Source: Thermodesulfobacteriota bacterium
GTDB lineage: Bacteria; Desulfobacterota; Deferrisomatia; Deferrisomatales; JACRMM01
Direction: 5' to 3'
Assembly: GCA_040756475.1 (NCBI GenBank)
Contig: JBFLZB010000011.1
Coordinates: forward strand, 1 to 48,881
Length of the DNA: 48,881 bases
Within the stretch, counting starts at the first letter, position 1, and the number at the start of each line of letters is the position of its first letter. Positions 4,789 to 48,881 of the stretch are shown here, in pieces. The position numbers and the translations under genes are program-made. A model generated the notes under the pieces. It ran no database searches, was not told the DNA's origin, and saw only the letters and a list, made by a program, of their open reading frames with translations.

Positions 4789-4800
4789 GGTCCTCCTCCA

Positions 4801-26850: not shown

Positions 26851-26974
26851 GTGCGGATGCTCCTTTCGCTTTGCGCGCAACGGCGGAGCCCCAGATGGCC
26901 CCGCGTTCTGCCAGGGCACGGCCCTCCCCCCGTGGTGGGGATTCGAGCGGTGCGGCCGGCGGTTCGGGCACGGA

Positions 26975-29262: not shown

Positions 29263-29931
29263 ATGAATTGCAGGGAGTTCGAGGCCCTGTGGATCGGCCG
29301 GCTCGAAGGCCGGCTGTCCGGCGCCGAGGCCGCGCGGCTCGATGGTCATGCGGCGGGGTGTGCCCCGTGCCGCCGGCTGGTGACGGAGCTGGAGAAGCTG
29401 GAAATGCGGCTGGAGGCCCTCTCCGAAGAGCCGGCGGAACCCCCGCCCTACCTCGCCGCCCGAATTCGGGCGCGGCTCGGCGAGGTGCCCCGGCGCCGGG
29501 GCTGGCTGGGGGGCTGGGCGGTTCGGCCGCTCTTCTCGGCGCGGTGGCTCCTGGTGTGCACGACGGCTTCGCTCGCGTTCTTTGCCGGGCTCCTGGCACG
29601 AGAGGTGCACCGGCTCAACGAGTGGTTCCGCTCGTCGGGCAACGTGCAGCAGGTCGTTCTGGAGTACCCGGGTACGGAGGGAGAAGACGTGCGCCTGGTG
29701 GGCGACTTCAACGGCTGGGGCCGCTCCCCCGGGCCGGTGCGGGCCGAGCGCCGGGAGGACCGCTGGATCTTCCGGGTGGAACTGGCGCCCGGCCGCTACC
29801 AGTACGCCTTCCTCGTGGACGGCAAAACGTGGTTGCCCGACCCGGAGGCCCCGAGTATGATCCCCGACGGTTTTGGGGGTTCAAACTCGCTCTTGTACGT
29901 GCACGGACGAGGGGAGAGTCAGTCCCTGTGA
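29263..29931 (+). CDS. Zinc-finger (anti-sigma type) membrane protein with CBM48/AMPK-type domain
   Basis: Protein of 222 residues in three parts. An N-terminal anti-sigma zinc-binding domain has HAAGCAPC (His29, Cys33, Cys36). A single TM segment at about 93-112 is followed by a C-terminal beta-sandwich (about 130-215) with VRLVGDFNGWG and GRYQYAFLVDGKTW. The latter are hallmarks of the CBM48/AMPK glycogen-binding domain, here on the far side of the membrane. The cytoplasmic part would bind the ECF sigma factor, and the CBM-like domain could sense a polysaccharide or act as an assembly module. ATG 29263 follows GGGGAGG. It ends 46 bases before the first cytochrome gene. Confidence 0.87.
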   Translation: MNCREFEALWIGRLEGRLSGAEAARLDGHAAGCAPCRRLVTELEKLEMRLEALSEEPAEPPPYLAARIRARLGEVPRRRGWLGGWAVRPLFSARWLLVCTTASLAFFAGLLAREVHRLNEWFRSSGNVQQVVLEYPGTEGEDVRLVGDFNGWGRSPGPVRAERREDRWIFRVELAPGRYQYAFLVDGKTWLPDPEAPSMIPDGFGGSNSLLYVHGRGESQSL

Positions 29932-29977
29932 GGGGAGGACAAGGCCTGCCGGAAATGTGGTCTTCCGAGGTCGCCCC

Positions 29978-31672: not shown

Positions 31673-31700
31673 GGGCTCCACCCGGGAGAGCAGACGACCG

Positions 31701-32228
31701 ATGACCACTATGCGCGACTCCGGATTTGGGATCTCCTTGCTTCTCTCGGCCTTTGCCGCCGCTTTGCTCCTGGGCCCGGCCCCGGTTCAGGCCGCGGCCG
31801 AGGGGGAACCCCTTCCCGCCATCACCCTGCCCGACGCCGCCACCGAGAAGCCGGTGGACCTCGGTGCCCACTTCCAGGGCAGCGTCGGCGCCATCTCCTA
31901 CATGCAGACCTCCTGCGCGGCGTGCCGCCAGGAGCTCTTGGCCCTCAAGGACCTCCGGGGCAAGTACCCGGAGCTCAAGGTGGTGGCCATCAGCGTCGAC
32001 TCCGGAAACCCCGCCCGCGTCGCCCGCTACCGGGAGCACTTCGGGTTCGACTTCCCCTTCGTCCACGACCCGGACTTCAAGACCCCCGAGCTCTTCGGGT
32101 TCTCCTTCACCCCGGCCCTGGTGCTCGTGGCGAAGGACGGAACCATCGGCCTCCTCAAGGGCGGCTACCGGCCCGGAGACGAAGTGGAGCTGGAAAAGAA
32201 GATTCTCGAGCTTACGGGAAAGCAGTAA
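31701..32228 (+). CDS. Exported redoxin (peroxiredoxin/TlpA-like, CAAC)
   Basis: Thioredoxin-fold protein of 175 residues. A signal peptide (ISLLLSAFAAALLLGPAPVQA) is followed by an AhpC/TSA-type domain. The active-site pair is CAAC at 72-75 (QTSCAACRQELLAL), and cis-Pro is in FTPALVLV. It sits 28 bases after the ten-haem cytochrome gene and before a triheme one, so a role in keeping cytochrome cysteines reduced is likely. It is the third exported thioredoxin-fold protein in 6 kb, with a different CxxC (CAAC, CVAC, CGPC). Confidence 0.87.
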   Translation: MTTMRDSGFGISLLLSAFAAALLLGPAPVQAAAEGEPLPAITLPDAATEKPVDLGAHFQGSVGAISYMQTSCAACRQELLALKDLRGKYPELKVVAISVDSGNPARVARYREHFGFDFPFVHDPDFKTPELFGFSFTPALVLVAKDGTIGLLKGGYRPGDEVELEKKILELTGKQ

Positions 32229-32234
32229 GGCTCG

Positions 32235-32313
32235 TCTCACGCAACGGCGCAACGACGCAGCGTGAAGAGAGCACAAGGGTTTTCGTTGCGTCGTTGCGCC
32301 GTTGCGTGAGACA
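32235..32313. repeat. Perfect 26-base inverted repeat (hairpin)
   Basis: The arms 32235-32260 and 32288-32313 are exact reverse complements, 26 bases each, around a 27-base spacer. The units are CGCAACG/CGTTGCG. It starts six bases after the redoxin stop codon. It could act as a terminator-like or mRNA-stabilising stem, or be a mobile repeat; no T-tract follows the right arm (CATGTTTTCC lies next to it). Confidence 0.9.
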
Positions 32314-32354
32314 TGTTTTCCGTTTCGTTTCCTCGGTCCCCACGAGTTGGAGCC

Positions 32355-33197
32355 ATGCGAGGAATGACATTGCCCCTGGTTCGGCGTTGCACGCTCCTGG
32401 TGGGGATGCTCCTGCCCCTGGCGGCGGGCGCCCAGCAGCCCCCCATCCCCCTCGAGAGGGTCACCTACCGGGACGTGGCGGGGCAGGTCGTGGACGGCGA
32501 CAGCGGGGCGCCGGTGGAGGGGATCGCGGTCAGCCTCCTCTACGAGGTCACCGTCACCGACGACGCGGGCCGGTTCCGGTTCGAGAAGGTACCGCTCACC
32601 CACACCGCCGAGGTGAGCATCCGGGTGCAGAGCAAGACCGGGCTCATCATCGGATGCACCACCATCGACGTGCCCGTGCGCTTCTATCCCCTGGCCGCGG
32701 AGGCCGACGGCAGGTTCGCCATCGCCATCGTCGACCCGAGCACGGAGGAGCCCGTCACCCTGCGCCTCGAAGCGCTGCCCTCCCAGAGCGTCGACCAGGC
32801 CTGTCGGCAGTGCCACGAGTCCAACCCGTGCATGGAGCAGGCCACCTTCGAGCAGGTCGTCCAGAGCGGCAAAGATCTGCGCGGCATCATCGTCCGCGAG
32901 GACAAGATGGAGGAAACGCGCCGCCAGCTCCTGCAGCAGGGGCTCCAGCGCGACACCTACGTCAAGATGCGCTACCAGGACACCCATCCCGACGGGATGA
33001 ACATGGAGCTGATCCCCATCCTGGAGCTCGAGGAGTACCGGGGCCGTTTCCGCAAGCCTACGAACCTCAAGCTGGTGGACGACAAGTTCGTCAACTGCGA
33101 CACGTGCCACACGCGGCACGTGCCCACCGCGCAGAAGCACTACGTGGTGATGCCCTACGAGCAGGAAAGCCAACTGTGCTACGAGTGCCACCGCTGA
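32355..33197 (+). CDS. Trihaem cytochrome with N-terminal carboxypeptidase-regulatory-like domain
   Basis: Exported protein of 280 residues. After the signal peptide (LVGMLLPLAAGA), a beta-sandwich of the CarboxypepD_reg type (about 38-130: VAGQVVDGDSGAPVEGIAVSLLYEVTVTDDAGRFRFEKVP) is followed by three CxxCH motifs (CRQCH, CDTCH, CYECH) with a helical stretch between them. The beta domain may mediate contact with surface sugars or other cytochromes. ATG 32355 is used; ATG 32364 is an alternative. It ends 38 bases before the Reg_prop protein. Confidence 0.85.
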   Translation: MRGMTLPLVRRCTLLVGMLLPLAAGAQQPPIPLERVTYRDVAGQVVDGDSGAPVEGIAVSLLYEVTVTDDAGRFRFEKVPLTHTAEVSIRVQSKTGLIIGCTTIDVPVRFYPLAAEADGRFAIAIVDPSTEEPVTLRLEALPSQSVDQACRQCHESNPCMEQATFEQVVQSGKDLRGIIVREDKMEETRRQLLQQGLQRDTYVKMRYQDTHPDGMNMELIPILELEEYRGRFRKPTNLKLVDDKFVNCDTCHTRHVPTAQKHYVVMPYEQESQLCYECHR

Positions 33198-33235: not shown

Positions 33236-34606
33236 GTGCGCCCTGGGAGGGGCTTGCCCGCATCCCAATCCTCGGCAGAAGACCCACAGCGTTGGGGCGC
33301 CGGAAGGCTCCTGTGGCGAGGGCTCGCTGCCTTCGCCGCCGCCGTGGTGCTCGCCTCGGCGCTCGGCTGCGCTGCCGGCGCAGTGCGCTCCGAGCCGGAG
33401 CCGGGTGACGCTCTCGCCCCGGGCGCGCCCGCGGCACAAGATCGGCTCCGCTTCGAGCTGCCCCCCCCGCCCGAGCGCACGGAGGCCCAGGCGTGGGAGA
33501 GCGCGAACGCGCGCGCCCGGGCCATGGCCGCCGACATGGGGCGCGAGATCGCCGCGGTGGTCCCTCCCCCGATTCCTGCCGAGGTGGCGTCTCCTCCCCC
33601 TGCCGTTGCACCGTCGCCGCCGCGGGTTGCTCCTCCGGCGCCCCTCCCCTCCGTGCCGCCTTCGCCCGATCGCACCCCTGCCGGGCCTGCCGTCGCTGCG
33701 GGTACGGCGCCGGTACGGGCCGCGGTTCCCTCAGTGCGGGTTGCGCGCAAGTACACCACGGAGAACGGCCTGCCCTCGAACCGCATCACCGCCCTGTATG
33801 TGGACGCCGAGGACGCCTGGGTGGGCACGGCGGATGCCGGGGTGGCGCGGCTCAACTTCGCGGAGGGCAACTGGATCGTCACGCGGGTGGAAGACGGGCT
33901 GACCTCGAACCGGATTACCGACATCGCCCAGGTCAAGGACCTGGTCTTCGTGGGAACCCAGGAGGGGGTCAGCGTCTGGGACGGGGTTTCCTGGAAGACC
34001 GAGACGGAGGCCGCCGGCGTGCCCCTGGTGAATCCGGTCTTCGCGGTCCACGAGGGCACGCTTTGGCTCTCGAGCCGGACCATGCGGGGCGGTTTGGTGA
34101 CCTTCGACGGCATTTCCTGGCGCAACCGGTCCACCATGATGCCCGGAGGGGTCCTCAACAACGTCTCCAGCCTGGGATTTTCGGGCAAGGACGTGTGGCT
34201 CGGCACCTCCAACCGCGGCGTATACCGGTTCGACGGGAAGGAGTGGACCACCTACACCGTCAGCGATGGGATCACGAGCAACTTTATCTACACGCTGGCG
34301 GTAAGGGGGGGCACCTGTTTCCTGGGAGGCTGCTGCGGCGTCAGCGCTTTCGAAGGGGGCACGTGGCGCGTCTACGACATTGCCGAGGGCCTGCCGCACT
34401 CGACGGTGAACGCGATCGCAGTGGCCGGCGAGCTGGTCTGGTTCGGCTCGAAGAAGGGCCTGGGACTCTTCGACGGCTTCGACTTCACGAACTTCTACAT
34501 GGCGGACGGCCTGACCGACGATCGCATCACCAGCCTCTTCGTCAAGGGTGCAGAGGTGTGGGTGGGCACGGCCAACGGTCTGACCGTCCTCGAAACCAGT
34601 TACTGA
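33236..34606 (+). CDS. Reg_prop beta-propeller protein, probable lipoprotein
   Basis: Protein of 456 residues. The start is GTG 33236 with GAGG five bases upstream. A hydrophobic signal ending SALGC (about residue 44) may be a lipobox. A Pro/Ala-rich linker (about 60-160) precedes a propeller of 'two-component regulator propeller' repeats. Each repeat shows xDGLxSNRITxLxV followed by VWVGTxxGVxxxDG: at least five copies (ENGLPSNRITALYV, EDGLTSNRITDIAQ, SDGITSNFIYTLAV, AEGLPHSTVNAIAV, ADGLTDDRITSLFV). In other proteins such repeats are the sensor part of hybrid kinases, but no kinase domain is present. A structural or ligand-binding role beside the cytochromes is inferred. Confidence 0.85.
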   Translation: MRPGRGLPASQSSAEDPQRWGAGRLLWRGLAAFAAAVVLASALGCAAGAVRSEPEPGDALAPGAPAAQDRLRFELPPPPERTEAQAWESANARARAMAADMGREIAAVVPPPIPAEVASPPPAVAPSPPRVAPPAPLPSVPPSPDRTPAGPAVAAGTAPVRAAVPSVRVARKYTTENGLPSNRITALYVDAEDAWVGTADAGVARLNFAEGNWIVTRVEDGLTSNRITDIAQVKDLVFVGTQEGVSVWDGVSWKTETEAAGVPLVNPVFAVHEGTLWLSSRTMRGGLVTFDGISWRNRSTMMPGGVLNNVSSLGFSGKDVWLGTSNRGVYRFDGKEWTTYTVSDGITSNFIYTLAVRGGTCFLGGCCGVSAFEGGTWRVYDIAEGLPHSTVNAIAVAGELVWFGSKKGLGLFDGFDFTNFYMADGLTDDRITSLFVKGAEVWVGTANGLTVLETSY

Positions 34607-34624: not shown

Positions 34625-37210
34625 ATGTCTACAGCGCAGCCCCGTCTGCCCGTCCGCGCCCCAGGGGTGGCCGTGAGGCTCTTCCTGGCCGGGGCAGCTC
34701 TTGCCGTCGTGCTCCTGGGGGTGCGGGCAAGCTGGGCAGACCACTCCCTCGGCTATCCCTGCCTGCAGTGCCACGCCCTCCGCTCGACGAAGGTGAAGGT
34801 GGGCACCCGGAACATCTTTACCGACCGGATCGATCCCTACGCCCTGTACACACAGTACTGGTATTGCGGCAACTCCTTCAGCGGGGGTCAGCCCCTCGAC
34901 TGTTCCTACTGCCACTCCGAGGGTTCGGACATCGGGCTGGAGATTGGTTGGGATCGGGGGGGGGCCGCGGGCTCGGCCTCTTCGGCCCACCCGGTGGACG
35001 TGATCGGCCCCGCAACGAGCTATGGAGCGGGGCGCATCAAGTGCAGCGACTGCCACAACGCCGACGTGTCCCCCTCGGACCCTTTTTGCGGCAAGACGGC
35101 GGATGACGGCTACCCCAACCACAAAAACCTCTCGGCCGTGACCGTCGACACGGGCACGAACCAGCGTACGGGAGCCGCCGCTCACCTGGACCCCAGCTAC
35201 AAGTACGGCGACACGGACACCGACGCAGCCTACGGCGTGGACTGGACGGCGGCGACGTTCACCGGGTCTAACGTCCCCCTCTGCTTCAAGTGCCACACCG
35301 ACATCAAGGCCAAGTACGACGCCCCTAACGGAGGGCACAACATCCGCAGCCGCTCGGACGACAGCGCCAACCAGAACGGCACGCTCACGAAAAAGCTCGG
35401 CTGCTACAACTGCCACGACCCCCACGCCTCGACCGACAACCCGAGCACGACCGACGTCACCGAAGGCAACGCCGCCCTCATCGTGACCCGGGCCGTCGGA
35501 TACTCCCACACCCCCTACGGCACGAGCTATACGGGGGCCAACCTGCCTCCCGTGGGCTACACGGGGGCCAACGACCGCTTGGTGTGCTACGGCTGCCACA
35601 GTGGGTACCTGGTCGAGGGCCAGACCCTCGGCGACGTCCTCGATCCCGATGTCTTCAGCCCCCGGTTCCCCTTTCACCAGAACGCCCACGCCGACCTCGG
35701 CTCGTCGGGCAACTGCCTCCAGAAGAACAACGGGTGCCACCAGGACGTCCACAACACCGACATCTACCGCTGCCTCGACTGCCACAGCACGGCGGTGACC
35801 TCCGCCATGGGCTCGCCGCCCGCGCGCCTCGTGGCCGTGGCCCACGTGGACGACGACTTCGGCCGGACGGCCGAGGGGGTCGGCAAGGTGTTCCACGGCG
35901 ACCGGTGGAGCCAGCACTCGGTGCGCTACGACGACGACCCCACCCTCTCGACCGACAACCTGACGCTGGACCTGAGCGACCCGGCCGTCAACGAGTGCCT
36001 CAAGTGCCACCGGGTGCGGGCCCAAACCGCGATCTCCGGCAGAATGCCCATGGTGTGGGTGGGTACCCTCCTGAGCGGTACTGCCTACGGTCGGCCTTCG
36101 GCCGGGCCCACTGGATGGAGCAACCGCGAGGCGCTCAACCATTACGACCCCTTCTGCCTCTCGTGTCACAACGGCGGCTACCCGGCATTTCGCGGCAACC
36201 TGCCCGCCCCCAACGTCGGAAGGTACTTCGCCTCGGCCGGCCATGGGAGGACGACGAGCTTCTCCCTACCCTCGTCGAACGGAGCACCGAAGATTCCCTG
36301 CCTCGAGTGCCACCTGTACCACGGGTCTTCCGCCTACAAGCTCCTGCCTGGCGACTCCCTCGTGGGGCAGGCCAGGGTGGTGAAGGGGTTTGCCTATGCG
36401 CGGCAGACCACGGGTACCGTCTTCCCCCTCGGGGACAACACCGACAGCCGCAAGATCGACTACACCGACTACACCGACAAGGGGGGTACACCCGACAGCC
36501 CCACCCTCTACAACAGCCGACTGAGCGGCAGAGCGAGCAACGACCTGCGGTCCGGGTACCTGTCGAACTACACGGTGGACTGGTCCACCAATCGGGGCGA
36601 CACGCCTCGAAACCCCGCCGGCATCTGGACGCCCTTCGGCACCTCGGGCGACGTGCGGCCGAACACCCAGAACAGCAACCGGTCCCTCGATTGCAACCAG
36701 GACGCCACCGACGCCAGGAATACCACGACGCCGAAGATCGGCTTCTGCAACGCGTGCCACTTCTACTCCAACAGCACCGACGGGACGGCCAGCGCCTACG
36801 GGCGCATCTACACCCACGAGGGCGACCCAGGCGGAACCAACTGCGCCGGGCAGCCCACCGGAGACAAGATCGCCTTCTTCAAGGACTGCGCCGAGTGCCA
36901 CGATCCCCACGGCTCGGGGAGCAGCACTAACGCCAACTTCTTCATGATCCGAGGCAAGATCAAGCACGGCAAGACCGAGAACCTCACCGACGCACAGAAC
37001 TCCTCCAACTGGACGGAGGTCAACTTCTACGTCTCGGGGGCAGACCCGGTGCCGCCCTACGATCCGAACAAGACGAGCAACAGCGAGCACCTGTGCAACG
37101 TCTGCCACTCGGGCCTTCTCTGGAGCAACCTGGATCCGGCCCAGGACACGGCGGACCACGCCCTGGGCCAACGGTGTACCCAATGCCACCCGCACAGCGA
37201 GAGCCCGTGA
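34625..37210 (+). CDS. Fifteen-motif multihaem c-type cytochrome
   Basis: Exported cytochrome of 861 residues with a signal peptide (LFLAGAALAVVLLGVRASWA). Fourteen CxxCH motifs (first CLQCH, last CTQCH) and one probable CX6CH (35714-35740, NCLQKNNGCHQ) are spread along the chain, with a haem-poor middle stretch between CLECH and CNACH. CHDPHG ends recur. There is no CxxxxCH motif, which separates it from the two following genes. ATG 34625 follows GGGAGAG. The stop is 10 bases before the 24-haem gene. Confidence 0.9.
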   Translation: MSTAQPRLPVRAPGVAVRLFLAGAALAVVLLGVRASWADHSLGYPCLQCHALRSTKVKVGTRNIFTDRIDPYALYTQYWYCGNSFSGGQPLDCSYCHSEGSDIGLEIGWDRGGAAGSASSAHPVDVIGPATSYGAGRIKCSDCHNADVSPSDPFCGKTADDGYPNHKNLSAVTVDTGTNQRTGAAAHLDPSYKYGDTDTDAAYGVDWTAATFTGSNVPLCFKCHTDIKAKYDAPNGGHNIRSRSDDSANQNGTLTKKLGCYNCHDPHASTDNPSTTDVTEGNAALIVTRAVGYSHTPYGTSYTGANLPPVGYTGANDRLVCYGCHSGYLVEGQTLGDVLDPDVFSPRFPFHQNAHADLGSSGNCLQKNNGCHQDVHNTDIYRCLDCHSTAVTSAMGSPPARLVAVAHVDDDFGRTAEGVGKVFHGDRWSQHSVRYDDDPTLSTDNLTLDLSDPAVNECLKCHRVRAQTAISGRMPMVWVGTLLSGTAYGRPSAGPTGWSNREALNHYDPFCLSCHNGGYPAFRGNLPAPNVGRYFASAGHGRTTSFSLPSSNGAPKIPCLECHLYHGSSAYKLLPGDSLVGQARVVKGFAYARQTTGTVFPLGDNTDSRKIDYTDYTDKGGTPDSPTLYNSRLSGRASNDLRSGYLSNYTVDWSTNRGDTPRNPAGIWTPFGTSGDVRPNTQNSNRSLDCNQDATDARNTTTPKIGFCNACHFYSNSTDGTASAYGRIYTHEGDPGGTNCAGQPTGDKIAFFKDCAECHDPHGSGSSTNANFFMIRGKIKHGKTENLTDAQNSSNWTEVNFYVSGADPVPPYDPNKTSNSEHLCNVCHSGLLWSNLDPAQDTADHALGQRCTQCHPHSESP

Positions 37211-37220
37211 GGAGGAGGGG

Positions 37221-40200
37221 ATGAAACGCGCGCACGTCCTCCTGGGGCTGCTGGCAGTCGGGGCCGCCCTCTTCCTCGTGCCGCAGGCCGCGCGGGCCCA
37301 CAACACCCGGATGGTCGGGTTCGGGCTCGCCAGTGCCTACCAGCCCGGCTCGTGCAGCTTCTGCCACGGCCAGGCTGTCGATGGCAGCCCTGTGGGCCAA
37401 TATTGGCCCGCGGCAGCCCCCGGATCGTACCCGAACCGAGCGGCCGACCACCCCCAGCACATCGCCGCCCTGAGCCAGGCGCGGTACCAGGAGACGACCG
37501 CCGTCCTCGTCACCGACACGGCAAAAGGTGCGGCCCACGACAAGCAGGTTGCCCTGTGCCTTGCCTGCCACCCCGATCCCGGCCAGCCCCGGGCCGGCAC
37601 CGGGGAGTCCTCCCACGCCGTGAACGCCGACCCCGCCGGCATCGCCGACGTGCACGGGGACGGCCGCACCCCGAGCACCGCCTCCACCTTCCAGACGATT
37701 CGAAAGCAGGACGACCCCTCCCTCGCGGGTGTCGCGCAGGTGGTCTCGGGAACCTACAGCAACTCCACCGCCGCCAGCGGCAAGCGCTGCTCCACCGTCG
37801 ACTGCCACTACCGGGTCCCGACCCCCGTGACCGGCGCGAGCCCGGACGGCTGGTACAACCCGGCTGCTGTTGCTACGTGCTCCAACTGCCACGGGTCGGG
37901 CACGGCGGGGGCGCTTCTGCCCAACGTCCACCTGGCCCACGTGGCCGCCTTTCCCCCGGCCAACAACCGGCCGCCGGGGAAGGGGTACGCCTGCACCCAG
38001 TGCCACCCGGCCCACGGCACCAACATGAGCCACCAGAACGGTTCGATCGACCTGAGCTTTGCTTCTGCGCTTGGCGAGCCGGGGCCGGTCCAGGGTTTCC
38101 AGACGGGCAGCGACCTGCTGGTGAAGTTCGGAGGGGCAGGCGCGTACGCCACTTGTGAGAGCTTCTACTGTCACGGCTCCGATCTGAACAACGGCGGCAC
38201 CGACCAGACCCCCCTCTGGAGCGACTTCACGACCGGCAACTGCGGCACCTGCCACGGCGTGAATGGGGATCCTGTCGCGCTGGGCCGAGCTCCCGGCAAG
38301 GCGGTGACCTCGGGGAGCCACCCCGTCCACTTCACCGTGCCGCGCGGTCCCGTTCTGCTGGACGACCACGCGTCCGCGGGCTGCTACCAGTGCCACAACA
38401 GCGTGGTGGCGGCCGACCACGCGGCCGGATGCGGCGACTGCCATCCGAGTTACTTCGACGGTGCCGCCACTATCATGGGAGGCGCGATCGGCCCGGGTGC
38501 CTCCAATCCCACCCCCACCCACGTGGATCTCAAGGTTGACTTCGGCAACACCGTGCAGACCACCGCCACCCAGTCGGTGCTGGGCACGACCGCACCGGCG
38601 GGGGCCCCGGACGCCACGAGCACCGACCGCTGTAACAACTGCCACTCCACGGCCTCGATCCCCGCGGTGGGCGTCGGGACCGTGCTCGCCAAGGCGAACT
38701 GGGCGAGCGCCGCGTACGAGCTTCCGTGCCTCACGTGCCACAACGCGGCGGACCCGGCGACGCGCAACGCGGACGGCTCCGGCGTCCTCGCTCCCCCCAA
38801 GGACACCCACTACGCCACCCGCGGCCACGGGCTCGCGACGGGTTCACGCTACCCATGGTCCTCCAACCGCTCCGGGGCCGGGGCCGCGTGCAGCGACTGC
38901 CACGCCACGGCAGCCGCCCACATCTCGGGAACCCTGGGCGACACCGACCGCCTCGGTACCGCGGGCAACGCGCTGTGCAACGGGTGCCACGACGGAAGCG
39001 GCTCGGGATCGGCAGTGAGCCAGGTCTCCACCCACGCCAACACTTCCACCACGATGACCAGCACCTATCAGCCGCAGCGGGCGTCGTTCCAGCTCAACTG
39101 CGCCGAGTGCCACGACGTGCACGGATCCGAGAACATCTTCATGATCGCGGCTCCGTCCCTGGACGGGCCCCTGGTCGCGCCGCGCCTCTACAGCGGCTCC
39201 GAGAACCTGAGCACCCTTCTGTACCGGGGGACCGTCTCCTTCCTGGACGACTCCGTCGGCACGAGCACGACGGTGGGCGCCGGGTACGCCAACCCCACCG
39301 TGGGAAACGGTAGCTTCGCGAGCTGGATCTGCCAGGCGTGTCACACGCAGACGGTGCACTTCCAGTACGACTCGAACGACGGGCACGTGAACACCGACTG
39401 CATCCTGTGCCACAAGCACGACTTCGACGGGACCTTCGGGACGACCAGCCAGGACGGCTTCATGCCCTCGGGCTGCAACGGCTGCCACGGGTACCCGCCG
39501 GTGCGGCCGGGCGAGGAGGGCGGCAACCCCGACTATCTGGCCGAGAACTACCCCGGCGGCGGCGGGTTCCACAAGGCCCATGTGGAGGCCTTGAAGGGCA
39601 AACTCGCCAGCTCCACCGACGCCCGGGAGATCTGCGGGCCCTGCCACGGGCAGGGGGCGGGGAGCACGAACCACGCGGAGTCCGGGCAGTCCACGGGAGC
39701 CTGGCCCACCTCGGCCCGAGACGTGGTCAACATCCGGGCCAAGGCGGCAGGGCAGAGCTCCTGGGGCTCCGGCACCTACGGCGGAGCGCTCGTGGACGCC
39801 ACGGGCACGACGCCCGGCAACGTCGCCATGGACGCCGCCAACAGCCGGTGCGTGGCGCTCGACTGCCACGGCCAGCCCGCGGCGGGAGAGAACCTGAACT
39901 GGTTTTCGCCCATCACCGATGGTGCCGGGGCTTCGGACGGCCTTGCGAAGAGCCAGGCCTGCAAGGGGTGCCATGACCAGACCCCCTCCCAGTGGCGCGT
40001 GTACGACGCGGGAGGGACGCTCGCATACACGGGCAACGCCTCCAACGCTGCCGCCAACTACTACCGCACCTTGAGCGGCTACTCCCGCGGCGGCCACGGG
40101 GATGCCGGCATCCAGAACGAGGATCCCTTCGTCAACTCGGCTCCGGGGTCGACCACCCCGATCGACTGCACGGCGTGCCACGCCGATGGCGCCGACCACT

Positions 40201-40742
40201 TCCCGTCGGCTTCGGGCAATCGGAACCGCCTGTCCGTCGTCACGATCGAGAACACGGGGGGCACGGGCCTGTGCAACGGGTGCCATCCCCGCACCACCTA
40301 CCCGGACAACCACCACCCGAGCCTTCAGGGCACGACGCAGAACCCGAATCGCGATATCGTGGTGAACGCGGCGTCCCAGCCCGTTCGCCAAGCGCCCACC
40401 ACGTGGTTCGAGAACCCCCCGGGCAGCGATCACTGGGAGCAGGACGGCTACAGCGCCTCGGGCGTGTCCGGCAACCCGGACTTCTTCGTGGACTGGTGGA
40501 ACGGCTCCGGCACCCCACCCAGGCCCCAACCCCTGGCCGTGCTGCCGCTCATCCAGTTCGTGGGCGACCAGAGCGGGACGACCAACACCGTGATCTGCGT
40601 CACGTGCCACAATCCCCACGGGACGGACCTCTATGTCTTCGATCCGGGAGGCATCGGCGGCGCGATCCCCGACAACAACATGCTGCGGCTGCGCGACGAG
40701 GACAACACGTTGTGCAACGCCTGTCACAAGAACCTGCCATAG
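37221..40742 (+). CDS. 24-haem c-type cytochrome with CxxxxCH...CxxCH modules
   Basis: Exported cytochrome of 1173 residues (signal peptide ending QAARA). Twenty-one CxxCH and three CxxxxCH motifs (CSTVDCH, CESFYCH, CVALDCH) are present. The CESFYCH...CGTCHG unit (residues ~310-360) matches the Geobacter GSu_C4xC__C2xCH domain (PF09698/TIGR01904). The segment CSTVDCHYRV - CSNCHGSGTAG - CTQCHPAHGTNMSHQ - CESFYCH - CGTCHG - CYQCH is nearly the same, in order and wording, as the repeating module of the giant downstream protein. A ribosome binding site GAGGAGG precedes the ATG. There is no membrane anchor at the C-terminus. It probably forms the same class of structure as its neighbour. Confidence 0.92.
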   Translation: MKRAHVLLGLLAVGAALFLVPQAARAHNTRMVGFGLASAYQPGSCSFCHGQAVDGSPVGQYWPAAAPGSYPNRAADHPQHIAALSQARYQETTAVLVTDTAKGAAHDKQVALCLACHPDPGQPRAGTGESSHAVNADPAGIADVHGDGRTPSTASTFQTIRKQDDPSLAGVAQVVSGTYSNSTAASGKRCSTVDCHYRVPTPVTGASPDGWYNPAAVATCSNCHGSGTAGALLPNVHLAHVAAFPPANNRPPGKGYACTQCHPAHGTNMSHQNGSIDLSFASALGEPGPVQGFQTGSDLLVKFGGAGAYATCESFYCHGSDLNNGGTDQTPLWSDFTTGNCGTCHGVNGDPVALGRAPGKAVTSGSHPVHFTVPRGPVLLDDHASAGCYQCHNSVVAADHAAGCGDCHPSYFDGAATIMGGAIGPGASNPTPTHVDLKVDFGNTVQTTATQSVLGTTAPAGAPDATSTDRCNNCHSTASIPAVGVGTVLAKANWASAAYELPCLTCHNAADPATRNADGSGVLAPPKDTHYATRGHGLATGSRYPWSSNRSGAGAACSDCHATAAAHISGTLGDTDRLGTAGNALCNGCHDGSGSGSAVSQVSTHANTSTTMTSTYQPQRASFQLNCAECHDVHGSENIFMIAAPSLDGPLVAPRLYSGSENLSTLLYRGTVSFLDDSVGTSTTVGAGYANPTVGNGSFASWICQACHTQTVHFQYDSNDGHVNTDCILCHKHDFDGTFGTTSQDGFMPSGCNGCHGYPPVRPGEEGGNPDYLAENYPGGGGFHKAHVEALKGKLASSTDAREICGPCHGQGAGSTNHAESGQSTGAWPTSARDVVNIRAKAAGQSSWGSGTYGGALVDATGTTPGNVAMDAANSRCVALDCHGQPAAGENLNWFSPITDGAGASDGLAKSQACKGCHDQTPSQWRVYDAGGTLAYTGNASNAAANYYRTLSGYSRGGHGDAGIQNEDPFVNSAPGSTTPIDCTACHADGADHFPSASGNRNRLSVVTIENTGGTGLCNGCHPRTTYPDNHHPSLQGTTQNPNRDIVVNAASQPVRQAPTTWFENPPGSDHWEQDGYSASGVSGNPDFFVDWWNGSGTPPRPQPLAVLPLIQFVGDQSGTTNTVICVTCHNPHGTDLYVFDPGGIGGAIPDNNMLRLRDEDNTLCNACHKNLP

Positions 40743-40839: not shown

Positions 40840-43800
40840 ATGCCGAGCTCGACCAGCCCCACCATTGCACGCCTTGCGGGAGCCTTCTGGCTAGGCGCTC
40901 TCGCCGCGGCGGTGTGCCTCTTCGCCGCGGGCTCGCCCGCGCGGGCCGCTACACACTACCCGCCCGGCTCCTTCTGCGTCGACTGCCACGCCGTGAGCCA
41001 GTCGAAGATGGTGGTGGGAACCCGGCTCATCAAGAAGTCCCAGAAGACCGTCGATCTCGGCATCACCGAGTCGTCCACGGCCATCCGGTGTCTCTTCTGC
41101 CACGAGAAGAACGCGGTCTCCGTCACGAACCGAACGAAGATGATGGGGGTGTGGGACCACTTCAACGCCACGTCGCTCTCGAAGCATTCCGCCAACGAGA
41201 GGTCTGGATTCGGAGGGGACGCCACGTCGTTCGACTGCCTGGACTGCCACACGGGGCTTAGCGCAGGGGTGGTCACCGATACTCAGGGAAACGCCACGGT
41301 CCACGGCGTGGACGCGAGCCAGACCAACAACCTCAAGTACTCCGGCCTGATCGGCACCCCGGCGAACGAGGCCGCGGTGGAGGCGGCCACGTGCCGGAAT
41401 GCCGCCTGCCACGGAAGCGCCACCCCCGTGCCCTACGGAACCATCTACGCCGCCAGCCCGGCCCATTCCTATGCGGCCACGACGATCTACGGCCAGCCCA
41501 CCGCCGGCTGCTTCTCGTGCCACGGCAAGCACAACAGCTACCAGAACACCTCCCTCATCGTCTTGCGGACCGACGGCACCACCTCCAACCAGCCCACCGA
41601 CAACCCCACCACCCGGGTGAGCCCCGACCGGTGCGGCGCGTGCCACACCCAGGACGACGGAGGGGCCGCAAGCGACTGGATGCTGCGGGGCCACGGGATG
41701 GCCACCGGCTACGGGGGCGACAGCATCGCGCTCAACTGCCTCTCGTGCCACGAGAGTACGAAGGCCCATGACTGGACAGGCGCGGACAAGCGCTTCAGCC
41801 TCCCGGTGCCCTCCGGGCTCTCGGGCATGGGCACGGGAAAGTCCATGCTCAGCGTCTGCACCACGTGCCACGCCGGGTTCACCTCCCACATGGCCACGGC
41901 GGGCTGCCTCGACTGCCACGAGCCCCACGGCCAGGGAATGGGGTCGGGGGTGGACCACAACATCATGATGGTGCGCCGGCAGGTGCCGGTCGCCGCGCCC
42001 CAGGACACGACCATCTTCCAGGTCTCGGGCATCCACGACACGGTGCCCAACTACGACTTCTGGCGGGCGGCGGATACCTCTGGGGCCGGGGGCTCGACCC
42101 GGGGGGTGTGCGACAACCGCGACTGCCACTTCGGGGTGCAAAATGTGAGCGGCCACGAGGTGTGGCCCCTCACGACCTACTTCGGCACCTGGGGCGCCGA
42201 GCACGGCCAGAGTCTTGTGGGCAACCAGGCGGTCGGCAGCAACTGCCAGGGCTGCCACAAGCACAGTATCATCGACCCTGGGGCTGGGTTCGGGGGAGCG
42301 GGGGCTTGCGCCGACTGCCACGGATACCCCCCTACCGGGAGCGACCCCTTCGTGGACAACCCGGACGCGGTGGGCGTACACGAACTGCACGTGGCCATCT
42401 ACGGCACCAGCAATTGCAACCTCTGCCACTTCGGAAACACCCACAACGAGTCAAACTGGCTCGGAAACACGGGTATTCCGATTCCCGCCGGCACGGTGGA
42501 CGTAGCCTTCAATCCCTCCCTCAATCCCGGAGTCGGGGCCCTCGTTCCGACCTACGACTCCGGTACCAACACCTGCTCGAACCTGCGCTGCCACAACCCC
42601 GACAGCGGCCCGGTGGGGACGGGGGTGGGCATCACCGGCAAGAGCGACACCGCCACGAACAACGCCCCCGTCTGGGTCAACGCCTACGCCCCCATCGTGG
42701 ACTGCCTGGGCTGCCACGCGGCCTCGCCCGCGGCCAATCCCGACGGGGGAAGCCATTACAAGCATGACAACGCCGCAGCCAAGGGGTATTCCTGCCGCGT
42801 CTGCCACGCCGACGAGAACGCGGCGGCCAACACCTACAGCGGCACCCACGCCAGGGGGACGCTGAATACAACGGACATCGTGGCCTTCGACTTCTCCCTG
42901 GTGCCGGGCATCCCGGCGGGCGGCGTCTACACCGACGGCGCGTCGGGGGTGACGGGCGGCACGTGCGCCACCCTCTACTGCCACGGCGCCACACTCAACG
43001 CCGGAGGAACCCGGACGGTCGCCCCCAACTGGCCCGTGTGGGGAACGGCCGCCACCGGCGCCTGCGGCACCTGCCACGATGCGACCACGGTGGACGCGAC
43101 CCCGGCTACCTCGATCTCCACCGGGAACCACCCGGCCCACCTCACGGCGGCCTATGGCCCCGTGTGGACGCCCAACGCGGCCACGGCCTGCGACAACTGC
43201 CACACAGGGAGCGCGCTCGCCACCGCCACCCACGTGGACGGCGGGAAGACCTTTGCCAACGTCGACACCTCCGTCGTGACCGCGAGCCTCCTGGGGCTCA
43301 CGGCGCCGGTCGCGCCCCTAGACGGCTCGAGCACCGACCGGTGCAACTACTGCCACGCCACTGCCGTGGCCGTCGGCCAGACCTTGAGCGGCACCGTGCT
43401 GGCCAAGCAGAACTGGGCCACGGGCACCTACAAGCTCTCTTGCGAGACGTGCCACGCGGCGGCCGGGCCGGCGTGGTCCAAGGCCGCGGGGCCGCTCGCG
43501 GCAGATCCCAAGGTCCAGGCCCCGGGCGTCGACACCTACTACTCCCTGGTGGGTCACGGAAAGCCCAGCGGCACCTACAACGCCACCGGTGCCCCGGCGG
43601 CGAATCTCGGCTGCGCGGTCTGCCACGATACGGCCCTGGCGCACCTGAACCATGCCCTGGGCGACAACCGCTTCCTGGCGGTTTCCTCCGACGGGCTGGC
43701 CTATACCACGGCGGTGAGCGAGGTGTGCCTCGATTGCCACCGGCCGGGGCAGACCCTGGCCGGCGTCCTGGGTCGCGACGCCACCCGGGAGGCCACCGTG

Positions 43801-46800
43801 CACTCGGGGGGCGTCACGGGCCGATACAACACCAGCGCCCTGGCGCCCACGGCCTATCCCGCCTACGGCAACAGCGCCAACTACGCCACGAGCCCCGGCT
43901 ACCAGTGCGCCGACTGCCACAACCCCCACGGCACGCCCAAGCTCGCCATGGTGAAGCCTTCCCTCGACGGGCAGCTCGGGGGGACGAGCAATCCGGTGGC
44001 GGTAGGCGCGGCCTTCGACTCCTCGGCGACCGATCTTCGCGGCCTCGATCCGACCACGGCCGCCAACGACGGCGCGTGCGACGCCTGCCACCGGTCTTCG
44101 GGGGAGGTGCGGCCCCATCCCGACACGAGCCACCCGGACAACCACAACCAGGGTGCGACGGGACTCTCGTGCGTGGGCTGCCACGACCACAAGCAGAGCT
44201 TCGTGGGCACCTGCACCGGCTGCCACGGCAACCCCGTTGCGGGCACCTGGTGGCCCGACGGCACCGCCCAGAACGGGAGCGACTACCCCAACCGCCCGGG
44301 CGACCACCAGCAGCACATCGACGCCATTTACGCGGTCAACGCGGCAACGCTCTCGGGCGCCACCGAGACGCAGAAGAAGAACCAGACCTGCGCCTGGTGC
44401 CACCCCAACCCGGGCGCCTCCCGGTCGGGCACGGGCGAGGCCGCCCACTTCGAGGCCACCTGGAACGCCCCCGCCGACCTCCACGGCGACGGGCGCGCGG
44501 GCGCCGCGGCGTCCACGTACCGGACCATCACGGGGGCGACCCAGGCCGCACAGGGAGCGTACAACAGTTCGATTGCCGCGGGCGGCAAGACCTGCTCCAC
44601 GGTGGACTGCCACTACCGGGTCACCACCCCGACCACGGGCACCCCAACGGCGAACGGCGACGGCTGGTACCAGCCCCTGGCCATGGCCACCTGCTCCAAC
44701 TGCCATGGCTCGGGCACCGCGGGAGCGGCGCTTCCCAACTCCCACCCCGCCCACGTGAACGCCCCCGCCGGGACCCCTGCCGGCATGGCCTACGGCTGCT
44801 GGTACTGCCACCCGAGCGGGGTGAACAACGCCGCGTACTCCACGAGCCACCAGGACGGCGCCGTCAACTGGAGCTTCGCCACCACGCTGGATCCGGCCGC
44901 GGGCGGCCCCCGCGCCGAGACCTACAACGCCCTGCCCACGGGGACCACCGCGGTGAAGTTCGGCACCGGGACGTTCGCCACCTGCCAGAGCTTGTACTGC
45001 CACGGCAACTTCCCCAACGGCGCCGTTGCCAATGCCCCCAACTGGGGCACGGCCGCCCACGGCGCGTGCGGCACCTGCCACGGCGTGTACGGGAGCCCCT
45101 TCAACTCGGGCGGGACTGCCCGGCCGCCGGTCACGTCGGGAAATCACCCCGTGCACTTCCAGCAGTACGACGCGAGCGGCGTCGCCGCGGTCTCGGTGGG
45201 GCCCCGGCTCGACCCCCATCCCGGCAACGCCCAGGGCGGCTGCAACGCCTGCCACAACATCCTGGAAAACTGCACGACCTCCTGCCACATGTCGGGCGTC
45301 GGGGCCAACCAGCCCACGGGGAGCCACGCGGACGGCACCGTCGACTTCCGAAACGGGGTGCTCACCTACCCAGCCCCCAACCCGGCCTTCGACCCCTACG
45401 TGCCGAACACCCTGGCCGCATCGCCCGCCTGCGACAACTGCCACTCCACGGCCGTGGCGGTGGGGCAGACCTTGAGCGGCGTGGCGCTCGCCAAGACGCC
45501 CGCCAACTGGAGCAACGCCTCCTACAAGCTCGCCTGCGTCACCTGCCACAACGCGGCGAACCCCTCGTGGTCCAAGGCGGGCGGAGCGGGTACGCCCAGT
45601 TCCAACGTCCGGGCCCCGGGCAAGGACGCGTACTACGCCGCCGACAACGGCGGCCACGGGCGTAGCGGAACGTTCTCGGCCACCGGGAACCCGGCCCCCA
45701 ACTACGGGTGCGCCGTCTGCCACGACGAGGCCAAGACCCACGTGAGCCACGCCCTCGACGACCAGGACCGCCTGGTGGGAGCATTGACGGCCCAGACCGC
45801 CTGCGCGGACTGCCATGCGCCGGGGCAGTCGGCACCCGGTCCGGTGCTCGGGCGCGACGCCACGGTGGAGGCCAGCGCCCACGCTTCTTCGGTCACCGGC
45901 CGCTACGCCGGGAATCCGGCCTACAACTACTCCTGCGTCGTGTGCCACGAGCCCCACGGGACGTCGAACGTCGCGATGATCAAGACGACCATCGTCGACG
46001 GCATGGGAGCCTCGGCCACGAACGTGACGCTCCTCGCGGAGACCGGGCTCGACCCCACGAGCGCCGCCGACGACGGCGTGTGCGACCGCTGCCACGCCGA
46101 CGCGGCGCAGGCCCACGCGAACACCACGCTCCCCAACAACCACAACTGGGGCGCGGCGTGCCTGTCGTGCCACGACCACAAGGAGAGCTTCCGGGGGAGC
46201 TGCACCGGGTGCCACGGCGGCGGTCTGGCCTCCGAGGGCAACGGCAACTGGTGGCCCGACAGCGTGCCCGCCGGCAGCGGCGGCCACGGAACCGCCTATC
46301 CCAACCGGCTCGCGGACCACCAGCAGCACATCGACGCGGTCGCAGTGGCCCGGTTCGGGGCGTCGCCCACCACGGCGCAGAAGAACACCACCTGCGCCAC
46401 GTGCCACCCGAACCCCGGCGGCGCCAACCACGAGGTCAACACGGCAGGGTCTCTGGCGAGCACTGCCGACGTGCACGGCGACCCCCAGAACACCGGGACG
46501 TCGTTCCTGACCATTACCGGCGCCGCGAACGGGTTGACGACCGATACATACAACAACGCCGTCACGGCAGGAGGAAAGAGCTGCTCCACGGTGGACTGCC
46601 ACTACCGGGTGACGACCCCCACGACGGGTACCCCCACGGCGGACGGCGACGGCTGGTTCCAGCCCCTGGCGGTGGCGACCTGCTCCAACTGCCATGGGTC
46701 GGGAACGGCGGGGGCGGCCCTTCCCAACGTGCACCCTGCTCACGTGAGCTCGAGCGCCGCTCTTCCGCCGGGGCGTGGATACGCCTGCACCCTGTGTCAT

Positions 46801-48881
46801 CCCAACCACGGGACGAACATGGCGCACCAATCCGGGGCGGTGAACCTCGACTTTAGCGGGACCCTCGATCCCGGGGGTACCCGCACCGAGTCCTACTCGC
46901 TCGGCTCGTCCCCGCCGGTCAAGTTTGGCACCGGCACCTTCGGCACCTGCTCGAGCTTCTATTGCCACGGCGACGGCCTCGGGAACGGCGGAACAAACCA
47001 AACACCCAACTGGAACGATTACACTACGGGCAGTTGCGGCACGTGCCACGGAAGCTTCGGGAGCAATGCTACCGCGCTGAAGGAAGTATCGGGTGGGAAT
47101 CATCCGGTGCACTACAAGCCGGACAGGGGGCCAAGGCTCTCGAACACGCACGCGGGGGACGGCTGCAATGCCTGTCACAATGCGGCGTCCGTGACATCGG
47201 AGTGCACGTCCTGCCACATCGGCACGGAAATGTATGGGGCCACGAATCCGGGAGCCAGCTCGCCCACGTCCACCCACGTGGACGGGAAGGTGGACTTCGT
47301 CAACAACAATCAGACGGTCTCCCCGTACGCCGTACTGGGCGCGTCGGCCCCTTCCGGCGCTCCCGACGCCACCAGCACCGACCGCTGCAACTACTGCCAC
47401 TCCACCGCCACTGTCACCACCGCCTCGCTCCCCGGTGGGGGAGTGGGGACCGTGCTGGCCAAGGCCAACTGGTCCAACGGGGCCTACCAGCTCGACTGCC
47501 TCACCTGCCACAACGCTGCCGACGCCGCCTGGTCCAAGGCGGGTGGCGCTTCGGCCGCAGACCCCAAGGTTCGGGCGCCCGCGGTGTACGGCGACGGCAC
47601 CAACTTTGGCGCCGAGGTGCGCGGCCACAGCCGGCCGGCTGCCCTGGGGGCCTATCCGGTCTCGAACAACACCCCGGGCAACCGGCCCTGCGGCGACTGC
47701 CACGACCTGGGGTCGACCCACGTGAACCATGCCAATGACACCACCTACGCCGGCAACCGCATGCGCAGCACCATCAACGGGGCCGCGGCGTCCAACGTGA
47801 CCCAGGCGTGCCAGGCCTGCCACTCCACAACCGGAGCCTCGCCGGCGACGAAGAAGGACGTCAACACCCACTCGAACCAGGGCTACGCGGCCCGCCTCGA
47901 GGCCCAATTCACCACGGCCTGCGATCAATGCCACGAGCCTCACGGAATGGTGGCCAACGGCACCGGCTACAACATTTTCATGATGAACCCGACGGTGCGG
48001 ATCACCGGGGCGGTGTCGGTCTCGGGAGTCCGCTTCGAGGGGCGCACCGGCAACTTCTCGTACAACGACACCCAGGGCACCAACAGCGACGACATCTGTG
48101 CCGTGTGCCACACGAACACCGCGAATCCGGGCTACCCGATGACCCACAACGCGGACGGCAACCACGCCGCGCCAGCCTACAACCGCGACGAGCGGGGCAA
48201 CAACTGCGCCTCGTGCCACATCCACAACCAGGACTCGAACCTGGCCACCGCCGACGGCCTCATGGCGCTCCAGTGCAACGGCTGCCACAGCTACCCGGGC
48301 CTGCCCTTCATCGCGGGGACTCACCGGATGAGCTCCCCCCACGACGTGCACGTGGGCCGGCCGAGCAGCGAGGCCGCGGTGCCCAACAAGGGCTTCGAGT
48401 GCGCCAAGTGCCACAACGGCTCTGCCCACAACAGCGGCACCGGCGGGGCGATCACCTCGGCCGACCAGTGGGACAGCCTGGTTGCGCCCAACATCGACAA
48501 CCGGGTGCAAGTGCGGTTCGATAGCTGGAACCCGGTGGCCGAGGCGGGCAATCCTGTGGACACGAGCCTCGACTCGACCTCGTTCAACGACATCAACAAC
48601 ACCTGCTCGAACCTTTACTGCCACGGCGCCACCTTTGCCGTGGTGAGCGGAAGCAAGACCGCCCCCGTCTGGCAGCCGGGGGACGGCGCGTGCGGCATGT
48701 GCCACGACACCGACACCACCGACACGACCGTGGGCACGTACCTCTCCACCGGCAACCACCGGGCCCACCTGGCCGACGCCTGGGGGCCGCAGTTCGGCAC
48801 GGCGAGCGAGACGGCCTGCGCCAACTGCCACCCGGCCTACGGCACGGGCGCCGCGACCCACGTGAGCCTCATCGTGGACTT
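40840..48881 (+). CDS. Giant multihaem c-type cytochrome, at least 63 haem motifs (3'-truncated by window edge)
   Basis: The open frame from ATG 40840 contains no stop to the window end, giving at least 2680 residues. A signal peptide (residues 8-36, cleavage after ARA) is followed by 63 haem motifs: 53 CxxCH, nine CxxxxCH (CRNAACH, CDNRDCH, CSNLRCH, CATLYCH, CSTVDCH twice, CQSLYCH, CSSFYCH, CSNLYCH) and one CxxxCH (CTTSCH, residue 1478). Residues 1-708 carry haems 1-16. From 709 onward tandem modules begin at residues 709, 1382, 2037 and 2589, each opening with CxxxYCH...CGxCH (PF09698-type) and holding 13-16 haems. The last visible module is only begun. It is predicted to be exported and to conduct electrons over long distance; the end and any anchor are not visible. 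Confidence 0.93.
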   Translation, partial: MPSSTSPTIARLAGAFWLGALAAAVCLFAAGSPARAATHYPPGSFCVDCHAVSQSKMVVGTRLIKKSQKTVDLGITESSTAIRCLFCHEKNAVSVTNRTKMMGVWDHFNATSLSKHSANERSGFGGDATSFDCLDCHTGLSAGVVTDTQGNATVHGVDASQTNNLKYSGLIGTPANEAAVEAATCRNAACHGSATPVPYGTIYAASPAHSYAATTIYGQPTAGCFSCHGKHNSYQNTSLIVLRTDGTTSNQPTDNPTTRVSPDRCGACHTQDDGGAASDWMLRGHGMATGYGGDSIALNCLSCHESTKAHDWTGADKRFSLPVPSGLSGMGTGKSMLSVCTTCHAGFTSHMATAGCLDCHEPHGQGMGSGVDHNIMMVRRQVPVAAPQDTTIFQVSGIHDTVPNYDFWRAADTSGAGGSTRGVCDNRDCHFGVQNVSGHEVWPLTTYFGTWGAEHGQSLVGNQAVGSNCQGCHKHSIIDPGAGFGGAGACADCHGYPPTGSDPFVDNPDAVGVHELHVAIYGTSNCNLCHFGNTHNESNWLGNTGIPIPAGTVDVAFNPSLNPGVGALVPTYDSGTNTCSNLRCHNPDSGPVGTGVGITGKSDTATNNAPVWVNAYAPIVDCLGCHAASPAANPDGGSHYKHDNAAAKGYSCRVCHADENAAANTYSGTHARGTLNTTDIVAFDFSLVPGIPAGGVYTDGASGVTGGTCATLYCHGATLNAGGTRTVAPNWPVWGTAATGACGTCHDATTVDATPATSISTGNHPAHLTAAYGPVWTPNAATACDNCHTGSALATATHVDGGKTFANVDTSVVTASLLGLTAPVAPLDGSSTDRCNYCHATAVAVGQTLSGTVLAKQNWATGTYKLSCETCHAAAGPAWSKAAGPLAADPKVQAPGVDTYYSLVGHGKPSGTYNATGAPAANLGCAVCHDTALAHLNHALGDNRFLAVSSDGLAYTTAVSEVCLDCHRPGQTLAGVLGRDATREATVHSGGVTGRYNTSALAPTAYPAYGNSANYATSPGYQCADCHNPHGTPKLAMVKPSLDGQLGGTSNPVAVGAAFDSSATDLRGLDPTTAANDGACDACHRSSGEVRPHPDTSHPDNHNQGATGLSCVGCHDHKQSFVGTCTGCHGNPVAGTWWPDGTAQNGSDYPNRPGDHQQHIDAIYAVNAATLSGATETQKKNQTCAWCHPNPGASRSGTGEAAHFEATWNAPADLHGDGRAGAAASTYRTITGATQAAQGAYNSSIAAGGKTCSTVDCHYRVTTPTTGTPTANGDGWYQPLAMATCSNCHGSGTAGAALPNSHPAHVNAPAGTPAGMAYGCWYCHPSGVNNAAYSTSHQDGAVNWSFATTLDPAAGGPRAETYNALPTGTTAVKFGTGTFATCQSLYCHGNFPNGAVANAPNWGTAAHGACGTCHGVYGSPFNSGGTARPPVTSGNHPVHFQQYDASGVAAVSVGPRLDPHPGNAQGGCNACHNILENCTTSCHMSGVGANQPTGSHADGTVDFRNGVLTYPAPNPAFDPYVPNTLAASPACDNCHSTAVAVGQTLSGVALAKTPANWSNASYKLACVTCHNAANPSWSKAGGAGTPSSNVRAPGKDAYYAADNGGHGRSGTFSATGNPAPNYGCAVCHDEAKTHVSHALDDQDRLVGALTAQTACADCHAPGQSAPGPVLGRDATVEASAHASSVTGRYAGNPAYNYSCVVCHEPHGTSNVAMIKTTIVDGMGASATNVTLLAETGLDPTSAADDGVCDRCHADAAQAHANTTLPNNHNWGAACLSCHDHKESFRGSCTGCHGGGLASEGNGNWWPDSVPAGSGGHGTAYPNRLADHQQHIDAVAVARFGASPTTAQKNTTCATCHPNPGGANHEVNTAGSLASTADVHGDPQNTGTSFLTITGAANGLTTDTYNNAVTAGGKSCSTVDCHYRVTTPTTGTPTADGDGWFQPLAVATCSNCHGSGTAGAALPNVHPAHVSSSAALPPGRGYACTLCHPNHGTNMAHQSGAVNLDFSGTLDPGGTRTESYSLGSSPPVKFGTGTFGTCSSFYCHGDGLGNGGTNQTPNWNDYTTGSCGTCHGSFGSNATALKEVSGGNHPVHYKPDRGPRLSNTHAGDGCNACHNAASVTSECTSCHIGTEMYGATNPGASSPTSTHVDGKVDFVNNNQTVSPYAVLGASAPSGAPDATSTDRCNYCHSTATVTTASLPGGGVGTVLAKANWSNGAYQLDCLTCHNAADAAWSKAGGASAADPKVRAPAVYGDGTNFGAEVRGHSRPAALGAYPVSNNTPGNRPCGDCHDLGSTHVNHANDTTYAGNRMRSTINGAAASNVTQACQACHSTTGASPATKKDVNTHSNQGYAARLEAQFTTACDQCHEPHGMVANGTGYNIFMMNPTVRITGAVSVSGVRFEGRTGNFSYNDTQGTNSDDICAVCHTNTANPGYPMTHNADGNHAAPAYNRDERGNNCASCHIHNQDSNLATADGLMALQCNGCHSYPGLPFIAGTHRMSSPHDVHVGRPSSEAAVPNKGFECAKCHNGSAHNSGTGGAITSADQWDSLVAPNIDNRVQVRFDSWNPVAEAGNPVDTSLDSTSFNDINNTCSNLYCHGATFAVVSGSKTAPVWQPGDGACGMCHDTDTTDTTVGTYLSTGNHRAHLADAWGPQFGTASETACANCHPAYGTGAATHVSLIVD
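42964..48881 (+). repeat. Tandem cytochrome modules within the giant gene
   Basis: Modules start at 42964, 44983, 46948 and 48604, with lengths of 2019, 1965 and 1656 bases; the fourth is cut by the window edge. The shared order is CxxxYCH, CGxCH, CNACH/CDNCH, CNYCH/CDNCH (STA), CxTCH, CAVCH, CxDCH, CxxCH(E/N)PHG, CDxCH, CxxCHDHK, CTGCHG, CAxCHPNPG, CSTVDCHYRV, CSNCHGSG, CxxCHP. The third module diverges after CDQCHEPHG and lacks the CSTVDCH...CSNCH part. DNA around CSTVDCH-CSNCHGSG is almost identical between modules 1 and 2 (near 44600 and 46590), indicating recent duplication or gene conversion. Confidence 0.88.

Follow-up and report, generated by a model that had tools for sequence, protein, structure and literature searches.

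The stretch of DNA analysed here (the window; 48,881 nt) is contig G000:C11 in full, and at 40840-48881 on the plus strand it carries the first 2680 of the 3416 codons of a giant cytochrome gene, with 63 of the 78 haem motifs. The frame opens with an ATG and runs for 2680 codons without a stop to the end of the window (40840-48879). Recounting gave 53 CxxCH, one CxxxCH and nine CxxxxCH motifs in the window part of the chain, exactly the numbers reported for a frame of more than 2680 residues in an earlier note on this DNA. GC3 is high over the whole frame (0.92) and around the contig join described below (0.94-0.97), which supports real coding. A long minus-strand frame at 43318-48879 was set aside, as codon-position base composition favours the plus frame, whose motifs are conserved. 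Residues 1-36 (40840-40947; ..AAAVCLFAAGSPARA / ATHYPPG) were read by eye as a Sec/SPI-like signal peptide, and the mature start, ATHYPPG, is common to the relatives. No lipobox or anchor was seen when the sequence was read by eye.

Several further cytochrome genes precede the giant on the same strand. The cluster comprises an ECF-type sigma factor (27980-28534, start approximate; Sigma70_r2 and r4 in a frame at 26663-28534), a zf-HC2 anti-sigma-like protein with an AMPK1_CBM domain (29263-29931), a cytochrome with nine haem motifs (29873-31672; eight CxxCH and one CxxxxCH, start uncertain), a Redoxin/AhpC-TSA-like secreted protein (31617-32228), a 3-haem cytochrome with a carboxypeptidase-regulatory-like domain (32313-33197), a Reg_prop beta-propeller protein with a lipobox-like ..ASALGC (33299-34606, true start uncertain), a 14-haem cytochrome of 861 aa (34625-37210) and a 24-haem paralogue of 1173 aa that aligns colinearly with the final part of the giant (37221-40742). 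The 14-haem gene is fused to the C-terminal unit in relatives, where one 21- or 27-haem protein corresponds to the whole stretch from 34625 to 40742 with its 14- and 24-haem genes. A stretch of 714 bp is 92% identical in nucleotide sequence between the paralogue (39390-40102) and the giant (49705-50417 of the joined sequence, on contig C15), and an identity so far above that of the remaining alignment suggests recent gene conversion. Between near-identical parts of the two genes dN/dS was 0.23, and this stretch is therefore under protein-level constraint. The giant is followed downstream, on C15, by genes for a 4-haem cytochrome and a BNR protein of 1504 aa. Most of the cluster genes are conserved across Deferrisomatales, including the 9-, 3-, 14/21- and 4-haem cytochromes, and so is the arrangement of the BNR protein beside the cytochromes. 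The BNR propeller protein (L009:11468-15979, minus strand) contains a biotin/lipoyl-like stretch, Ig-like and CHB_HEX_C repeats and a Gly-rich tail ending CFLSALGK. Elsewhere in the window, an FG-GAP repeat protein adjoins an 865-aa frame with a 4-haem Cytochrome_C7 region (3628-7398, minus strand), and a T2SSE/MshEN ATPase of the type II secretion or type IV pilus family is encoded at 17916-19634.

The terminal 127 bp of C11 (48755-48881) are the reverse complement of the terminal 127 bp of contig G000:C15, an exact overlap that places an assembly break within the giant gene. Its length suggests an assembler k-mer overlap, and a search of this genome with the 127-mer gave only two full matches, in C11 and C15. 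The remaining codons lie on the minus strand of C15 (L009:17626-19959). The earlier note had expected the frame to continue past the window and had proposed extending the contig downstream; after joining, an in-frame stop was reached on C15, completing a chain of 3416 aa that ends ...MLRLRDADNTLCNACH-stop and carries 78 haem motifs (67 CxxCH, one CxxxCH and ten CxxxxCH). Residue shuffles of the full chain gave chance expectations of 0.35 for CxxCH and 0.36 for CxxxxCH, against the observed 67 and 10, so that only ∼0.7 motifs would be due to chance where 78 are present. The mature chain has approximately 3,380 residues, corresponding to ∼346 kDa plus ∼48 kDa of haem.

The contig break inside the gene, the breaks within genes of the giant family in several MAGs, and the paralogous repeats inside the giant gene itself could all be taken to mean that a false fusion or a repeat collapse has made separate cytochrome genes look like one. 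Yet 2680 codons stand on a single contig, and four lines of evidence indicate that the C11/C15 join is right. Frame, GC3 and motif density are unbroken over the join. Residues 2588-2747, which span the join at residue 2680, align to residues 708-872 with 50% identity and without a large break, so that a paralogous alignment of 165 residues in the windowed self-comparison crosses the join. Joining also recreates exactly the order 24-haem gene, giant, 4-haem gene and BNR protein that is unbroken in contig G002:C401 of a relative. Finally, the longest exact repeat in the giant gene and its 24-haem paralogue measures 102 bp, less than the 127 bp of the overlap, whose sequence is confined to the two contigs. 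With intact giants in a single-contig genome, and with haem sites and additional histidines conserved, the artificial fusion against which the earlier note had cautioned is very improbable. Because a collapsed or missing module is possible, the count of 78 haems could be off by one module.

Windowed self-comparison of the chain detected repeats at an offset of ∼660-690 residues, smaller in the last module; direct self-blastp showed none, BLAST probably dropping matches that lie inside the self-hit. The layout is an N-terminal cap (N-cap) with 13 haems, followed by four tandem modules with up to 16 haems in ∼660 aa; the fourth module includes a C-terminal cap (C-cap). The N-cap covers residues 37-565 (40948-42534). 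Modules A (residues 566-1239, 15 motifs; 42535-44556), B (residues 1240-1909, 16 motifs; 44557-46566) and C (residues 1910-2560, 16 motifs; 46567-48519) follow on the plus strand with approximate boundaries, and module D starts within the window (48520-48881) and continues on C15 to residue 3416. Module D plus the C-cap, VPDNNMLRLRDADNTLCNACH, spans residues 2561-3416 with 18 motifs, and by motif positions the sections thus sum as 13 + 15 + 16 + 16 + 18 = 78. Successive motifs are spaced by a mean of 43.7 residues (median 40, largest 121), or about 44 residues per haem.

All 156 cysteines of the mature chain fall in haem motifs, the only other one among 157, Cys26, being within the signal peptide; among relatives this economy is nearly as strict, with between 0 and 8 cysteines outside motifs. 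Outside its motifs the chain has 102 histidines as candidate distal ligands for the 78 haems. Among 15 aligned modules, 15 of the 16 haem sites of module B are 100% conserved and the remaining one 71%, and 15 non-motif His columns, for these 16 haems, are conserved at 70% or more. Similarly, eight non-motif His are conserved among 41 copies of a 9-haem unit. This supply of conserved histidines is what bis-histidine ligation would need, and nearly all haems are probably bis-histidine ligated. The signal peptide, the 78 motifs, the conserved sites and the supply of distal ligands together identify the product, from sequence, as a c-type multihaem cytochrome that most likely binds up to 78 covalent c-type haems. 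The central claim of the earlier note, that one giant secreted multihaem chain is encoded here, is borne out by the join, by the intact giants of relatives and by the conservation of haem sites and histidines.

Profile searches placed parts of the chain among known cytochromes. The window part matched TIGR01904/PF09698 (GSu_C4xC__C2xCH) over eight stretches at 142 bits against a cut-off of 27, the CxxxxCH..CxxCH stretches being common to these cytochromes and the giant chain; this domain makes up part of a module only, and membership of the domain family defines neither architecture nor function. On the window part there was no match to the c7-type triheme repeat TIGR04257, and the OmcA/MtrC decahaem family TIGR03507 scored 37 bits, below its cut-off of 209. 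A phmmer search of the window chain against the PDB returned no match. A profile of the module matched solved multihaem proteins including 6qvm, Hmc, GSU1996 (3ov0) and OmcS, the match to OmcS (6ef8; E=9.3e-7) covering only one 80-residue stretch of the module. AF2 prediction gave a pLDDT of 34 for a full module (681 aa, 15 rows) and a moderate 65 for the 9-haem unit (41 rows), and Foldseek found no match in the PDB to the model of the 9-haem unit.

The source organism and its N-cap relatives belong to the Deferrisomatales. The first 200 residues of the N-cap (ATHYPPGxxCYDCHAVSxSKMVxGTHLIK...CLFCHE) form a signature specific to this order: of 395 genomes sampled from the phylum, the N-cap profile matched 11, every one in Deferrisomatales. 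The giant family spans four families within the order. The N-cap occurs at five places in this genome, namely in the giant gene, in frames of 3024 aa with 64 motifs (G000:C114, L011) and 2897 aa with 57 motifs (G000:C32, L094), and in two genes with a contig end inside them, one of at least 1660 aa and at least 37 motifs (G000:C64, L093) and the other on G000:C147 (L092). A relative's giant (G007:C1, L095:1-11276) has 83 motif matches and reaches at least 3758 aa, its contig ending near the apparent C-terminus, and a single-contig genome (G004) has two intact giants, one frame of 2674 aa carrying 54 motifs and another of 1717 aa carrying approximately 31. Both caps are kept across relatives that differ in module number. 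The Deferrisomatales giants thus form a conserved family that is multicopy within genomes. On G008:C321 (L049:9084-17119) a giant gene shows up as two overlapping frames of 2337 and 392 aa, which suggests a frameshift or an assembly error.

The 9-haem unit ranges more widely than the N-cap. Its profile matched 23 of 297 genomes, 11 of the 23 lying outside Deferrisomatales, and giants with different ends exist in other families, for example one with 71 motif matches in ∼2750 aa. A 2350-aa frame with 24 motifs in another family (G228:C11, L113:3091-10140) ends ..SQNCHR...GWNKVTPW, resembling the end of a second giant type of Deferrisomatales; that C-terminal cap is therefore more widespread than the N-cap.

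A candidate outer-membrane conduit is encoded elsewhere in the genome. On the minus strand of contig C14 (L105:6776-13332), an MtrA/DmsE-like cytochrome is followed by a weakly matching MtrB/PioB-like beta-barrel, and the pair faces a plus-strand frame of 922 aa with 13 haems. The cytochrome matched chain A of 6r2q, which we take to be Shewanella MtrA, at E=1.3e-36 and the DmsE family at 1.7e-65, while the barrel reached 25 bits for MtrB_PioB when scored with its neighbours (cut-off 23). An MtrA/DmsE-type cytochrome beside a barrel makes an outer-membrane electron conduit of the Mtr kind plausible.

The firmest description of the giant chain is a secreted array of bis-histidine haems arranged in modules. 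Beyond this, we infer that the haems pack as one path, and where the chain resides, what supplies its electrons and what accepts them. The reading favoured here, held at about even confidence, is that a single chain of bis-histidine haems, located at or outside the outer membrane, serves extracellular electron transfer as a wire or as a charge store. The closely packed haems would move electrons along the chain, while their sheer number could also store them, and the electrons would serve respiration of extracellular acceptors such as Fe(III). Supply might come via outer-membrane conduits such as the MtrAB-like pair, with the smaller cytochromes of the cluster also feeding the giant chain. A place at or outside the outer membrane is favoured because of the Mtr-like conduit and of the low-charge composition, rich in A/G/S/T/N (50%, with 1.9% Lys), in which the giant differs from its 3- and 4-haem neighbours; the argument from composition is a weak one. 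Beyond the signal peptide, no secretion signal, anchor or surface domain was found in the giant chain. Within the order, Deferrisoma camini is cited as a dissimilatory Fe(III) reducer (reference 53 of PMC10052568).

The earlier note had argued from length that such a chain could hold a haem wire tens of nanometres long. OmcS, OmcE and OmcZ have 6, 4 and 8 haems per subunit (PMC10138318), and the rises of their filaments (PMC12954529) give 7.3-8.5 angstrom per haem; arranged in the same way, 78 haems would span ∼56-66 nm. The wire idea is consistent with this figure, which is an extrapolation only.

The chain might instead stay in the periplasm, as a capacitor or a periplasm-filling wire that stores electrons, as proposed for GSU1996 and GSU2210. 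The signal peptide is plain and, with neither lipobox nor anchor seen, allows a periplasmic place equally well. A chain of 78 haems would make a large electron store, the module profile matches 3ov0, and the single chains in the literature that come nearest to this one are periplasmic and have been suggested to be capacitors (PMC10138318). GSU1996, however, consists of c7-type triheme domains, each with a single His-Met haem (PMC10138318), whereas here CxxCH motifs are mixed with CxxxxCH and conserved histidines match the haems nearly 1:1. The Lys-poor composition also speaks against a periplasmic place. Moreover, the usual width of the periplasm is less than the extrapolated ∼56-66 nm of a straight chain. 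Overall, a periplasmic role is held to be less likely than the favoured reading. That the chain is a precursor, either cut or self-assembling into filaments like those of OmcZ, OmcS or OmcE rather than acting as a monomer, would accord with the recurrence of module units in other, shorter proteins, the 24-haem neighbour among them, and with a weak match of the N-cap profile to the OmcE filament subunit 7tfs (E=5.5e-5). The alignment accuracy of that match is low (0.66), though, and it may reflect haem-motif spacing only; no protease domain was found in the scanned flanking cluster genes, and the N-cap and C-cap are both conserved across relatives with differing module numbers. We consider a precursor quite improbable.

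Taken together, these data place very large haem chains, of modular build and in a conserved gene neighbourhood, in an order with a cultivated iron reducer. Since module number varies among relatives while the caps remain recognisable, the giant family forms a natural series for asking whether one chain serves as a long electron wire or as an electron store. In a broader form of the favoured extracellular reading, which we regard as unlikely, the whole order would share a family of unpolymerised haem wires, each a single molecule extending tens of nanometres from the cell, with five such genes in one genome; wire length, from ∼30 haems to more than 80, would then depend on how many tandem modules lie between the fixed end caps. 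Extracellular, unpolymerised chains would provide another solution than the polymeric cytochrome filaments, the physiological role of which is disputed (PMC11077965).

Single giant multihaem chains are known from other organisms. Desulfuromonas acetexigens has an 86-haem cytochrome with reported expression under electrode- or iron-respiring conditions (PMC12133095); it is likewise described as a single giant bacterial chain. Among the sampled genomes the N-cap is confined to Deferrisomatales. The giants of ANME archaea and Methanoperedens, with 69, 86 and 113 haems, are also single chains with tens to more than 100 haem sites, and have been proposed for extracellular electron transfer (PMC9012536, PMC7082337). 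Many archaeal giants carry S-layer, pectin-lyase or transmembrane parts (PMC9012536), none of which a Pfam scan reported for the part of the giant that lies in the window. OmcS, OmcE and OmcZ hold multihaem arrays too, but as small polymerising subunits with no convincing homology to the giant chain. The periplasmic GSU1996 (12 haems) and GSU2210 (27 haems) of Geobacter have already been termed monomeric nanowires of haems (PMC10138318). GSU1996, whose tandem domains give a linear, wire-like haem array (PMC10138318), resembles the giant chain in having many haems per chain and tandem domains, here four tandem modules; both Geobacter proteins are far smaller, and the c7-type domains with His-Met haems are a feature of GSU1996. 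The "monomeric nanowire" suggested by the earlier note therefore fits the 78-haem chain by extrapolated length but is not new, given GSU1996 and GSU2210 and giants of 86 and 113 haems (PMC12133095, PMC9012536, PMC7082337). Searching the literature for papers on both Deferrisomatales and cytochrome gave none and, as far as the literature was searched, what is new is a Deferrisomatales family that combines an order-specific N-cap, a conserved gene cluster and tandem modules with as many as 16 haems.
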